In this document: piece after piece, positions 51,190-56,250 of the stretch | Numbering within the stretch: the stretch's first letter is position 1 | Layout: each line of letters begins with the position of its first letter | Origin: Endocalyx cinctus | Taxonomy: Eukaryota; Ascomycota; Sordariomycetes; Amphisphaeriales; Apiosporaceae | Assembly: GCA_001600455.1 (NCBI GenBank) | Contig: BCKC01000009.1 | Coordinates: forward strand, 1,798,001 to 1,862,000 | Length of the DNA stretch: 64,000 nt | Reading direction: 5' to 3' | Notes under the pieces: model-generated | Database searches by the model: none | What the model was told of the DNA's origin: nothing | The model's input: the letters and a program-made list of their open reading frames with translations, nothing else | Made by a program: the position numbers and the translations under genes

Positions 51190-53700
51190 AATGAATTTTT
51201 GTTTTTATTTTAATTCTTTATATGTTCCCTTCTTGCATATAAATATGTAGCCGAGATCCAAAAAAAAAAAAAAAAAAGAGAAAAAGGAGAGTACCTAGAT
51301 AGTTCTCAAGTAAAAGTATGTTGGGCTTCGGACAATCACACAAATCTTATGAGCGGGTATAAGATGGATTTGTCGGACTTATTTGTAAAAGGGGCTATCT
51401 TGTAAGTTCGGCCGATTTATGAAAATATGTCCGAGTCAGTAGTCAATATGATTGGCTGTTTAAATTGAATTCACCGAGTCTTGGCACTTTATATAAGCAC
51501 GGGAGATTTATATTTTGATTTATTTATTTTTAGACGTTCAAATATGACCTATTGTGCTTCTATGTATGGATGTAAGTTTACTCAATTACTCAATTACTCG
51601 TGCGAAATTGATTCTTATTGCTTATCGATTATTTGTCATTGAAAGCTTGTCTAGAGCTTACAGCTACTGCATTTCTATCTTGTAGCTACCGTAATAAATA
51701 CTTCGTCACACAATCCGTGGAGTCTGGACGAAAAATAGAATTTACCAAGATGTTCAAGTTGTTTTTTTTTTCTCCTGCCCGAGGAGGCAGTATTGTATTC
51801 CAAGTGTTCGGGATATACTGAGTACAGTCGTAAAGAATGTACAAGCTATCTAGCTAGGTAGATATTTAATTTGACTGAAAGTTGCAAATCTACAAAAAAA
51901 AAAAAAAAAAAAAAGAACCCGAAGAACCACACCACATGTTCATGGTCTTCCGTGAGTATGCGCCGGCTTGGGAGCAATCTATACGGAATATGAACAGTAA
52001 CCGTACGCATCCAAGGGTAAGAAGAAGAGCAGTGGAAATTTCTTGGATAAGAAGAGCGAATATAACGTGTGTGCGCGCCGCTGCCGCCCTGTCCTGCCTG
52101 TCAACCTGTCAGCCTGTCTGCCTATTAGGGGAAGTGGGGTACCCTAAATCACCCCGCCTGCCCCAGCCCACTTCTAGCGTATCGAATCTCGATATATCGA
52201 TGCTTCAAGAACCGTCTAATGGAACAAGACCCGGTACATTAATATACTATTTGCTACACTCTTTGCTACATTTACTGTCACCGACCGGGTATTGTCTTTG
52301 TCATTTTGTAACTAGTTACTCTAAGACAAATAGGGGATATGTCGCAACCGTGTAACAGTCTCTCGTTCTTCTCCTCGTAGCTAGATGCGTACCATGATAA
52401 GTCTAATACGAGAGGACTATCATATACTCGGTATATTTGTTCCAGCTTGAAAGTCCTTTCATGGCTTGGTCCCGGCGTAACCTGATCTCAAAGGCACCTT
52501 GATCTATCTTTCCGCTGGTCATATGCAAACCTACTCAGCCTCACAAGTAGCTGGTCTGGTTTCAGTGTTTGTGTAGACTCTCGGTATTTCCGTAGAATGG
52601 CTCATCACGTGCGATACTTTCATGTGATGTTGTACATTTTAGGTCCAAGATAATATTGTCAGAGATGTTATAATATTAATGTTACGGCCAGCTGAGGGTT
52701 GGTGACACCTACTCCATAATGGCATTTGTACCTTTTCAAAAATACCTTAGCTTACTTAATACTTTCCTTTTCTCAACTTGTGGATCTACGATGAATATAC
52801 TGATTACTTCGAGCCTTTCCCTTGATATATCGTATAAGACATCACACCCACGCCTACAGCGGTAAAAAGGACCACCTAGGGGGGTCAATCTAGGACAGCG
52901 ACGACTCGGAAATAATTAATAGAAAGACGTGGAAATGTTTTGGGAATTAATTATCACTTCGAGTAGATCCCCTGCGCAGCCTGCGGAAGCGGCGGTCGGC
53001 TCCCAAGGAGGACTCGAGGTTCCTCGCCGGCTACCCCAGCCGCTAGATGCTCAGCTTTGAGTACGGCAGCCAGGCCTTCACCGGTCGGTTCATCGCCGTG
53101 GCTGTGCTCAAGATGGATGGTGCTTTCGTGCCTGCCGGTGGATACATAAAACCAACTATCTCGGTTATCCCATCATATAATTATCATAACTATGTAATAT
53201 AATTGACTAGGTTACTTAATCAGTGACCTCAAAGTGGCATCAGAAATCTCAATACGTAGCAAGGGATATATAGGTAGTTGAAATGATAGTATTAGGGTAG
53301 TTAAATCTTCATGTTGACTGGAGGGGTCCTTGGACTATTCAAGTTGGTTAACTTAGTTACGTAATTAAAGCAGGGCGACATGCTATTGGTTAAGGCAAGG
53401 CTTATAAAAGGATCGAGCATGGCTGTATGGTAGTCTAGATACGTCGTATTATATCATGGTGAAGAGAGAATTAATAGTTAATACTGGTGGAAGGGATATG
53501 GGGCCACACAGGGATGTCCGTATTTGGAGCTGAGCCTTTAGGTAGCAGTGTCACGTGCCTTGGTATTATCTATGGTATAAAAGGCACCAAATCCCGCCTA
53601 CCTCCTGCACTCTCCACTTACCATCCTTCATCTCTTTCTTATCCCCCATCTTTTAAAACCCCGAATCACTTCCAAATACTTTATTTTCTTCACCCGTCCC
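51190..53700. other. 2.5-kb intergenic region with a coding scrap
   Basis: Mostly AT-rich DNA without a supported gene. It contains A runs near 51260 and 51893 and a CCTGT-rich stretch near 52085-52125. A GC-rich coding-like island at 52972-53150 is listed separately. The last 100 bp are CT-rich, consistent with the leader of the VIT/vWA gene. Confidence 0.5.
52972..53150 (+). pseudogene. GC-rich protein-coding remnant, unidentified
   Basis: About 180 bp stand out by high GC in AT-rich surroundings. One frame reads RRSAPKEDSRFLAGYPSR, a TAG stop, then MLSFEYGSQAFTGRFIAVAV and LKMDGAFVPAGG, which looks like real protein sequence interrupted by one nonsense codon and losing character on both sides. 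I do not recognise the family. It may be an exon of a decayed gene or a captured fragment. Confidence 0.4.
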
Positions 53701-56250
53701 ATGGCTCGCCGTAAGACAACAAGTATAAAAGGTAACACCACCCCACCACTGATTGGTTGCTGGTACCCCTTTAATAAGCCGGAATCCGCATGGCAAATTC
53801 GACGGTCCTATCTTCCCTTGTCAAGCCTCCGAGCGCACACGGTTATCAAAGATGTTTCCTCACGCACCACCATCACCCAATCATTTATAAACGAGACCAA
53901 TGAGCATCTCAACAACATGGTCTATTCGTTCCCAATGTATGCCGGTATTTCCGTCGTTTCCTTCAATGCAACCATAGACGATCTGAAGATAACTGGGGTA
54001 ATCAAGGAGAAGGAACAAGCCCGCCACGAATACGAAGAATCTGTCACTAAGAGTGAGCATGCTGCGCTTCTGGAGCAGCTACCCGAAGCCTTAGATGTCT
54101 TCACGACACATATTGGCAATGTACCAGCAGGAAGTAACGTAACAGTAGAGATCGTTTACATAAGCGAGTTGCACTACGACGCTGAAACTGACTGCACACG
54201 TTTCACAATCCCATCTTCTATCGCCCCTCGCTATGGGGCTACCCCTGACAACATCCTCAGCTCGGTGTTGCTATCTTCAACTGTTCGAGACCCTATTCAG
54301 TTTATCGTTGACGTGGAGAGCCCAGAAGGTTGCCCCATCAGACAAATTCAGTCGCCCAGCCACCCTATCGCTGTTAAGATAGGGCGCACTACAAGCATGG
54401 CCACCAAGGCCTTCATGCCCCACCGAGGGTCCGCAACATTGTCGTTTGACTGCACAAATCTCGATAAAGACTTCATTGTCATGGTGGAGGTAGAAAATGC
54501 AAATCTACCTAAGGCGCTCCTCGAGACACATTGCTCGATTCCGAACCAGCATGCACTACAGGTGACTCTTGTGCCGAGGTTTCAGCTACAAACCGGTTCC
54601 AGCGAGATCGTCTTCCTTATTGATCGATCCGGAAGCATGCGAGGTCAGATGAAATTGGTGATACGAGCAATGAATACGATGCTGAAGTCTCTTCGATTTG
54701 GCGTCAAGTACAATATCTGCTCCTTTGGGGATCACTTCACCTTCCTTTGGCCAAGAAGCAAACCGTATAACCAGACAACCCTCGACCAGGCCTTGAGTTA
54801 TGTTGATGCTATGGAGGCTGATTTCGGTGGTACCGAGATGATCGAACCGGTGAAAGATACGCTATCCAGACGCTATGAAGATCTGCCCCTCAGCGTTATT
54901 CTCTTGACTGATGGGCAAATCTGGTCTCAGAACGAGCTTTTCAGAATTATCAGTGACTCTTCGGAACAAGGTCACAGTCGGTTCTTCTCTCTGGGAATTG
55001 GCCGAGAAGCTTCTACAGCACTTGTTGAGGGAATCGCTGCACATGGAAAGGGGGTAAGTCAGTTCGTTGCCGAGGGGGAACAAATGGACAAGAAGATGGT
55101 TCGACTTCTCAAGGGTGCTTTGATGCCCCACCTGGATAACTATTCCCTCGATTTGAAATACAAAAGCGAGGGAGATGACTGGGAAATGATCGAATCCACC
55201 GATTTATCTGGAGTTACCATCGCATTGCCATTACGAGAAAAGGGCAAGAGCACCCAGAAAGCTGCTCTGTCATTTTTCAACACCTCAAGCCAAGATTCGG
55301 GTGATGAAGTAGATGAAGATCATACGGAAAGTAAGAAGGTCGATAGATTTTCCCACGTGCCCAATGTCTCCGCTCCGCTGGTTCTCCAGGCCCCATTCAG
55401 CCTCCCTCCCCTCTACCCCTTTTCACGGACGACCGTGTTCCTCTTACTTGACTCGAGCATTGGCATTCCCGAGTCTGTTTTCTTCCGAGCCTCTACAGAC
55501 GAAGGACCAATCGAGCTGGAGATAAAGGTAGAAGATGTCGGCAAAGGGGAAACGATCCATCAGCTTGCTGCCAGAAAGGCAGTCTCAGAGCTCGAGCAAG
55601 GCCATGGCTGGCTTAGCAAGGCAGTTGACAAAGACTCCAATACGCTGCTGCAGACCCAATATGAGAGTTTATTCGACGAAATGGTCGAACGCGAGGCTAT
55701 TCGACTCGGGGTCATGTATCAAATCGCCGGGAAGTGGTGCTCATTTATCGCTCGCGAAGGTGATCAAGAGCATAAACCAGTTTCATTTGGTGGCAAGATC
55801 CCTAGGCCCTGTTCCACCGGGGGTTTAGCTCCGAGAAGGCAGCTAGCTTCTAAAGCCGCAAGAAAATCAGCTCCTTCTAGGAGCGTAGGTCCGGTGAAAA
55901 GGAAGCGCATAAGTAGGACAGGACGAGATCAGAGCCCAGAATCCGAATCCACTGGCGAAGAAGATATTACGCAAGCTCTAATCCGACTTCAGAAGTTTGA
56001 CGGATGTTGGGAGTTAGAGCAATCCTTGCTGGACATTCTCGGTGTCAAGCTAAATAAATCTAAGAAACAGCTTCAGGAGAACTCTGTAACCGCGACTGCT
56101 CTTGCCGTAGCTTTCCTTCAAACCTACGCGGCTGATGAGGCTGATTCTTGGGAGCTTGTCGTAAAGAAGGCGATGGAATGGCTGAAGGGACAGAAAAACG
56201 TTGATGCAAAGATGGAGGTCAAAAAGGCCGTAGAACTTTTATCCGGGTGA
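53701..56250 (+). CDS. VIT and von Willebrand factor A domain protein carrying an H3-tail-like segment
   Basis: A single exon encodes 849 residues from ATG 53701. The N-terminal VIT domain (about 20-160) contains [20 protein letters not shown] and [14 protein letters not shown]. The vWA domain has a complete MIDAS start, Asp308-x-Ser310-x-Ser312 in FLIDRSGSM, and later GGTEM (Thr site) and [10 protein letters not shown] (Asp site), so metal-dependent binding is expected. Near the C-terminus, [20 protein letters not shown] resembles the conserved end of PARP4/VWA5-type proteins. Between them is a basic stretch, residues 705-736, resembling the histone H3 tail (listed separately) and followed by [11 protein letters not shown]. 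The molecular role of fungal VIT/vWA proteins is unknown. A nuclear role is only inferred from the basic KRKR segment. Confidence 0.92.
   Translation: [849 protein letters not shown]
55813..55908 (+). other. Histone H3 tail-like segment inside the VIT/vWA protein
   Basis: Residues 705-725 run [18 protein letters not shown] then SAP. Against the conserved H3 tail residues 10-30 ([20 protein letters not shown] and P) only two positions differ: Leu709 for K14 and Arg713 for K18. Lys718 corresponds to K23, Lys722 to K27, Ser705 to S10 and Ser723 to S28. After a two-residue insertion, GPVKRKR parallels H3 GGVKK, placing Lys733 near K36. The H3 comparison is from general knowledge of the very conserved H3 tail; no alignment was run. 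Confidence 0.85.

Follow-up and report, generated by a model that had tools for sequence, protein, structure and literature searches.

What the locus examined here raises is the question of why a protein built from VIT and vWA domains should contain a segment that reads like the N-terminal tail of histone H3. The gene lies in a 64,000-nucleotide stretch (the window) of contig BCKC01000009.1 of the fungus Endocalyx cinctus, positions 1,798,001 to 1,862,000. A sequence-only reading of the window had described the segment as a near-perfect mimic of H3 and had proposed that it could act as a decoy or as a substrate of histone-modifying enzymes. We compared the window protein with its own genome and with its fungal relatives. 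The analysis confirms that the H3-tail mimic is real; that it is a selected feature of a VIT/vWA protein is supported by codon comparison, by shuffled controls and by conservation among orthologues. Four points had been overlooked: orthologues carry an N-terminal H3 1-8 half, some relatives mimic H4 as well, copies can stand in tandem, and acceptor lysines are often lost.

The H3-tail match in the window protein

Residues 705 to 726 of the window protein are identical to H3 residues 10 to 31 at 20 of 22 positions, the two changes being K14L and K18R. The match first described, to H3 10-30 with leucine for K14 and arginine for K18, therefore holds and extends to residue 31. In the translation the AARKSAP context of K27 is intact, as had been stated, and the QLASKA context of K23 is intact as well. 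A GPVKRKR stretch that follows had been taken to parallel the K36 region of H3; this parallel was not confirmed, as H3 residues 32 to 40 are poorly kept in the 53 mimics introduced below (K36 in 7, K37 in 9).

In phmmer searches, a 32-residue stretch retrieved the histone H3 chains of the PDB at 9.5e-7, and the whole window protein reached H3 at 2.7e-5 over residues 704 to 741. When the fungus's own H3 tail was compared with its own genome in six frames (44.76 Mb), the H3 gene was found at 4.2e-21 and the VIT/vWA protein at 4.5e-5; since the next place scores 1.1, only these two rise above noise. A degenerate DNA pattern for QLASKA gave 64 matches in the same genome against 49 for its backward control and was uninformative.

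Relatives were sampled as 242 VIT/vWA proteins, comprising the window protein, 6 motif-search matches, the best 120 of 1155 homologues and the best 120 of 1772, with 5 overlaps removed (4 of the first 120 and 1 of the second, P0005, had already been counted). Proteins P0001, P0007, P0009, P0010, P0011 and P0013, which are non-VIT/vWA or partial, were left out of the counts. A score of at least 60 against the H3 tail was reached by 53 of the 242 (window protein included), a proportion that describes best-listed matches and is not a population frequency. With shuffled tails, none of 4840 comparisons reached 60 and one of 4840 reached 55. Because the shuffled controls never reach 60, chance and low complexity are excluded, in agreement with the earlier judgment that neither was a likely source of the match. 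The reversed H3 tail, tried as an alternative signal, scored at most 51. Mimicry of the H2A tail and the yeast H2B tail was likewise set aside, the scores being not above control or due to the H3 part; P0087, for example, scored 62 against H2B (shuffled maximum, 56) over its H3 copy.

The codons of the mimic were compared with those of the H3 gene of the same genome, as the sequence-only reading had suggested. Among the 22 codons, 5 are identical, 15 differ synonymously and 2 change the residue, whereas random recoding with the codon usage of the VIT/vWA gene would leave a mean of 7.6 identical. Because synonymous sites are saturated while 20 of the 22 residues are kept, the segment is not recent H3 DNA.

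Conservation and distribution of the two halves

The closest homologues among the matches listed come from Xylaria and are 66 to 67% identical to the window protein; those that carry names are mostly from Pezizomycotina. In a 148-sequence tree of the core, the window protein belongs to a 22-member clade (itself included) whose named members are Xylariales or Xylariomycetidae. The internal mimic is present in all 22, the other 21 of which come from separate records. The earlier concern that orthologues might lack the segment is thus answered within this clade, where none does, but it stands for the wider sample, in which 189 of the 242 proteins have no detectable copy, so that the mimic is not a universal VIT/vWA feature.

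Within the clade, mean pairwise identity is 0.84 over residues 711 to 726, 0.77 over residues 1 to 9, 0.70 over the VIT domain and 0.73 over the vWA domain; in the flanks of the mimic it is 0.32 (695 to 704) and 0.17 to 0.28 (725 to 744). Residues 711 to 726 read as a constrained island within a drifting linker. By these comparisons of amino acid sequence the mimic is shown to be older than the divergence of the 22-member clade and under strong amino-acid constraint. As a separate observation, a second, RRSARLQ-like motif follows the mimic in 14 of the 242 proteins, all within this clade; it is absent from the window protein.

In the orthologues the H3 tail appears split in two, with residues 1 to 8 at a presumably free N-terminus and residues 10 to 31 in the linker. 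H3-like N-termini occur in 19 of the 22 clade members, 14 of which read exactly MARTKQTAR, that is, H3 1-8 at the histone position. The remaining three are P0026, whose model starts just before the VIT domain; P0050, which starts inside it; and the window protein, whose MARRKTTSI keeps H3 positions R2, K4 and T6. That such an N-terminus is free presupposes removal of Met1, which we assume. Across the sample, 18 of 242 proteins begin exactly with MARTKQTAR and 29 of 242 fit a looser H3-like pattern. The internal tail accompanies 28 of the 29 H3-like N-termini, compared with 25 of the 213 proteins that have none (kinship ignored). Two 29-member sets are used here: the one behind this association includes P0086 and not P0028, and the one behind the residue counts given below the reverse.

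A copy of H4 residues 5 to 22, or part of it, is present in the linker of seven relatives, for example, QGGKGLGVGGALRHRRIL, with scores of 54 to 73 against a shuffled maximum of 46. These are P0222, P0224, P0226, P0228 and P0229 (the Clonostachys group), P0052 and P0008. In all seven, H4 K12 is replaced by V, L or Q and K16 by L or M, and copies with methionine or leucine at K16 are reminiscent of the lysine-to-methionine histone mutants. For the window protein itself the best score against the H4 tail was below the reporting limit of 45, and no H4 mimic was found in P0011 or in the reverse-transcriptase-like (RT-like) proteins, both of which are described below.

Carriers of the mimic include Xylaria, Nemania, Hypoxylon, Poronia, Clonostachys, Cylindrodendrum, Exophiala and Clohesyomyces; taxonomy, checked for one Xylaria, one Clonostachys, one Exophiala and the Clohesyomyces species, places these in Sordariomycetes, Eurotiomycetes and Dothideomycetes. 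Tandem copies of the mimic are present in 11 proteins. The tree covers 148 of the 242 proteins (the first 123, the 6 later additions that bear either label, and every sixth of the unlabeled additions, 19 in all). On it the internal label changes 16 times, well supported branches requiring at least 13 of these changes, and the N-terminal label changes 12 times; P0052 and P0058, both long branches, are joined in this tree, which leaves gain and loss undistinguished. Such a distribution could reflect a single ancient origin followed by many losses, or the tail could have been gained repeatedly. An A25C substitution recurs in Xylariales, Exophiala and Clonostachys, which would fit common descent without proving it.

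Independently of the mimic, we note that 99 of the 242 proteins have at least two Nup98-like GLFG motifs, whereas just 4 of the 53 mimic carriers do (kinship ignored; the sample is Fusarium-rich). VIT/vWA proteins seem to be either of an FG type or of a histone-tail type.

Residue retention and candidate roles

The most conserved residues in the 53 internal mimics are P16 (53), R17 (52), L20 and S22 (51 each), A21 (50) and Q19 (49), followed by R26 (47), P30 (46), S28 (45) and G13 (40). Position 18 is lysine in 36 mimics and arginine in 13. The best-kept part is P16 to S22 and not K27, which the sequence-only reading had placed at the center of the mimic and which is arginine in 11 of the 49 mimics that extend to it.

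In the 45 mimics that match from residue 13 or earlier, K14 is kept in 9 and is replaced by alanine in 14, methionine in 9, leucine in 2, and other residues in the rest; of 40 intact G-x-[AP]-P-R frames, 10 have lysine at the acceptor position. In the window the slot reads G-L-A-P, with glycine and proline present and the acceptor lysine replaced. As far as these alignments indicate, most mimics preserve the recognition frame around position 14 but have lost the acceptor lysine itself. Given that the Gcn5 recognition motif is G-K-X-P (PMC4964394, excerpt), retention of the glycine and proline with loss of the lysine would lend the segment the look of a pseudosubstrate.

Of 29 N-termini matching M[AVST]R[TA]x[QM], a pattern that fixes R2 and leaves position 4 free, 26 have lysine at position 4, as do 25 of 31 H3-like N-termini when positions 4 and 5 are both left free; K9 is kept in 1 of 29. 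Eleven internal copies, several of them close kin, reach H3 residue 4; none has lysine there, six carrying arginine, three glycine and two serine. Lysine 4 is thus retained only where it would follow a free N-terminus, as it does in H3.

Keeping recognition residues while losing acceptors usually marks a competitive bait or pseudosubstrate. The reading we favor, to which we assign a probability of roughly 0.52, is that the two-part display of H3, joined in some relatives by part of H4, serves as a bait or pseudosubstrate for complexes that bind histone tails. An intracellular VIT/vWA protein of the VWA5A/PARP4 type in a xylarialean fungus would expose the H3 tail in two disordered parts and would bind one or more tail-binding nuclear complexes in competition with the real H3 and H4 tails; the role of the VIT/vWA core would be to recruit, hold or inhibit that complex. 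The likeliest partners would be readers of the unmodified free H3 N-terminus, such as RBBP4/Hat2-type WD40 proteins or PHD fingers, the N-terminus reader being joined to an acetyltransferase or methyltransferase that works further along the tail. R2 and K4 are contact residues in RBBP4-type binding. RbAp48/Nurf55 binds the H3 N-terminus in very similar fashion to FOG1 1-15 (PMC4139204, excerpt), and K4 methylation blocks RBBP4-type binding of the H3 N-terminus (PMC8792015, excerpt). The E. cinctus genome has domain matches of the RBBP4, Suz12 and EZH2 types. We infer that the mimic protein would contact the nuclear or newly made-histone machinery, bind it and compete there; the decoy role proposed from the window alone is plausible.

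A broader version of the proposal is possible, and we hold it doubtful in its full extent. It takes Pezizomycotina VIT/vWA proteins to be multivalent nucleosome-tail decoys, combining the H3 N-terminus, H3 10-31 and in places H4, with acetylation sites changed to uncharged residues. They would titrate or dock a complex that modifies H3 or H4 tails and contains a subunit of the RBBP4/Hat2 type or another N-terminus reader (Hat1-Hat2, NuA4/SAGA-like or PRC2), and an unrelated RT-like family of Leotiomycetes would have evolved the same bait.

Several observations weigh against the bait reading. The first part of the mimic, residues 705 to 714, is less conserved (identity, 0.58, in the 22-member clade), and the start of the C-terminal domain, residues 755 to 774, equals the mimic at 0.83 to 0.84, so the mimic is not uniquely constrained; constraint here is measured as amino-acid pairwise identity among the protein sequences of the 22 clade members. 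The N-terminal half of the mimic is itself degenerate in the window protein. With kinship removed, the association between the two halves points the same way but is not significant (on average 2.4 of 9 independent pairs in favor and 0 against; 3.4 of 13 in the reverse test), informative pairs being too few. The distribution is patchy, the 189 mimic-less proteins including every named Fusarium protein among the matches listed (scores below 45), and the two other VIT/vWA genes of the same genome lack the mimic. No single partner is indicated, K23 being kept in 36 of 53 mimics and position 27 being K in 34, R in 11 and another residue in 4 of 49. Lysine 14 persists in a quarter or fewer of the mimics, which means that the pseudosubstrate feature is not universal. 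The bait reading is drawn from sequence and predicted structure.

The mimic might instead be a modified substrate in which K4 (in orthologues), K23 and K27 are methylated or acetylated by H3 enzymes, switching a reader-dependent interaction. Methylated H3-like motifs exist in other non-histone proteins. The K23 and K27 contexts, QLASKA and AARKSAP, are intact in the window; in 61 core copies (a pattern containing both, with up to 4 changes) K23 is present in 48 and K27 in 46, and the genome has PRC2-type domain matches. We nevertheless consider this reading unlikely: K27 is arginine in the 11 copies noted above and K23 is replaced in 17 of 53, residues 16 to 22 are better kept than the surroundings of K27, and both K14 loss and the H4 copies are left unexplained.

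It is rather improbable that the segment is a linear motif for some other partner that also acts on H3, be it a protease, a 14-3-3 protein, a kinase, a ubiquitin ligase or the protein's own vWA domain. The conserved core QLASKA does span the region of H3 clipping, and R26, S28 and P30, kept in 45 to 47 of the 53 mimics, are compatible with a phospho-serine reader; alone, such a partner explains neither the free MARTKQTAR N-terminus nor the H4 copies in the same linkers.

A histone-type nuclear import signal, read by a karyopherin like Kap123 or importin-4, would have a precedent in H3 1-28 and H4 1-34, which are import signals bound by Kap123 (PMC5677370, excerpt), and many mimic-less homologues have GLFG motifs instead. 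Kap123, however, uses K14 and K23 and ignores residues 15 to 22, and its binding is weakened by K14A or K23A as well as by H4 K16A (mildly) or K5Q/K12Q (PMC5677370, excerpt). K14 is lost in 36 of the 45 mimics that reach residue 13 and H4 K12 and K16 in 7 of 7, residues 16 to 22 are the best kept, and the window protein has leucine at 14 and lysine at 23, at odds with a Kap123-type requirement for both lysines. Since what Kap123 needs is the opposite of the conserved pattern, we regard import as a poor candidate.

Evolutionary conflict, with the tails as arms-race baits (for example, against chromatin-targeting mobile elements or rival nuclei), would account for the patchiness, the tandem arrangement in 11 proteins and the recruitment of the tail more than once by unrelated proteins; the label changes on the tree (16 internal, at least 13 of them forced, and 12 N-terminal) and the H3 tail in the acidic loop of the unrelated RT-like family point the same way. 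The mimic is stable and not fast-evolving within the xylarialean clade, we know of no antagonist, and such a conflict seems very improbable. That the segment arose by chance or low complexity, reflects a misassembly or was recently inserted from H3 coding sequence is already refuted by 0 of 4840 shuffles at 60, by saturated synonymous sites and by the occurrence of the motif at one and the same position in all 22 clade members.

Gene architecture and relation to known systems

The features of the gene are collected in the table. Its first in-frame ATG is at 53701 and its stop codon at 56248-56250. Residues D308, S310, S312, T378 and D404 of the vWA domain are invariant in a 54-row alignment, and we take them, on the basis of the motif, to be the vWA metal site. 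In an AlphaFold2 model built on the same alignment (mean predicted local distance difference test [pLDDT], 81; predicted template modeling score, 0.80), pLDDT falls below 50 in residues 1 to 14, 178 to 194, 514 to 545 and 689 to 751; both H3-like pieces are predicted to lie in flexible parts. A Pfam scan with E values up to 1 gave no histone domain match and no PARP domain match in the window protein, and its N-terminus has no hydrophobic run as judged by eye. Upstream, TATAAAAG at window positions 53576-53583, about 120 bases before the start codon, was picked out by eye as a possible core promoter element.

Table. Positions in the window of the VIT/vWA gene and of the segments of its product
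Feature	Coordinates	Strand	Basis or remark
VIT/vWA protein gene	53701..56250	+	predicted from an uninterrupted frame of 849 aa and Pfam domain matches
N-terminus MARRKTTSI	53701..53727	+	degenerate MARTKQTAR counterpart; predicted disordered, pLDDT <50 over residues 1-14
VIT domain, residues 40-153	53818..54159	+	Pfam VIT, 8.4e-32
vWA domain, residues 302-455	54604..55065	+	Pfam VWA_3, 6e-29
Disordered linker, residues 689-751, folded core to C-terminal helical domain	55765..55953	+	pLDDT <50
Internal H3-tail mimic, residues 705-726 = H3 10-31 with K14L, K18R	55813..55878	+	alignment, phmmer
Basic stretch directly after mimic	55879..55908	+	not kept as H3 32-40
C-terminal helical domain, residues 753-848	55957..56244	+	five helices, mostly high pLDDT

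The H3 tail also occurs outside the VIT/vWA family. A second, unrelated family, which matches a reverse-transcriptase domain weakly (below the curated cutoff), has an H3-tail copy in an acidic loop; its carriers are P0007, P0009, P0010 and P0013, the copy being in two parts in P0013, and named examples are from Cudoniella and Hyphodiscus (the latter checked as Leotiomycetes). This RT-like family possibly corresponds to the rvt cellular genes, on which a literature search brought up no paper of use here. The E. cinctus orthologue (G000:C3:4938398-4941613) has the acidic loop without an H3-tail copy. In P0011, a eukaryotic vWA and U-box protein, residues 1 to 43 resemble H3 1-42, with K4R and K18R among the changes. 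Together, the RT-like family and P0011 suggest that the H3 tail has been recruited repeatedly.

These data may bring into view a cellular protein family outside the chromatin field with long, two-part and sometimes two-histone mimics. Such mimics are stable within one clade and, over three fungal classes or more, either recur or are ancient. The data also supply a concrete hypothesis for fungal VIT/vWA proteins. The residues kept (R2 and K4 at free N-termini, P16 to S22) and lost (K14, H4 K12 and K16) could be read as a natural mutational scan of what the partner needs. H3-tail antibodies and motif-based name transfer may hit such proteins; the RT-like P0013 is labeled "Histone." No description of histone mimicry in fungal VIT/vWA or PARP4/VWA5A proteins was found among the matches listed in the open full-text literature (titles and abstract starts), a weak absence given that subscription papers and preprints are scarcely covered.

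The VIT and vWA domains and the C-terminal helical domain liken the window protein to human VWA5A, Dictyostelium Vwa1 and PARP4, and the position of residues 753 to 848 matches the C-terminal domain described for DdVwa1/VWA5A (PMC10539598, excerpt). The "adhesion-type" label given earlier does not fit: the nearest solved relative is PARP4 (7.6e-23), and fungal members have been assigned to an intracellular clade (PMC10539598, excerpt). The window protein differs from PARP4 in having no ADP-ribosyltransferase domain match in Pfam, and from all three in its histone-tail sequence, on which the description in PMC10539598 (excerpt) is silent. Compared with H3 and H4 themselves, the family carries H3 1-8 (in orthologues), H3 10-31 and, in relatives, H4 5-22 or part of it, all in register; it differs in having, for the window protein, no histone domain match, in the replacement of most K14, K12 and K16 residues and in the splitting of the tail over two sites.

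SALL4 and BCL11A carry FOG1-type N-terminal RBBP4-binding motifs. The N-terminal H3-like peptide of the orthologues parallels FOG1 1-15 (PMC4139204, excerpt) and would be a candidate binding motif of the same kind, presumably for the groove on the WD40 propeller face. The difference is that the orthologues copy H3 literally, as MARTKQTAR, and add a second, internal H3 segment.

Most known cases of histone mimicry are viral or consist of one short motif in one of a few chromatin regulators. Other histone mimics, among them G9a, JARID2, influenza NS1 and EZHIP, are known as short, single stretches. The window protein, which is no histone, carries a statistically significant match to a histone tail within a stretch predicted to be disordered; a mimic in the functional sense would also be bound or modified by readers or writers of the histone. 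The linker mimic of BAZ2B (PMC5663869, excerpt) shares with it an H3-like stretch in a non-histone protein. The fungal mimics differ from these in being long and split, in occurring in tandem in some proteins and combining two histones in some, and in extending over several fungal classes.

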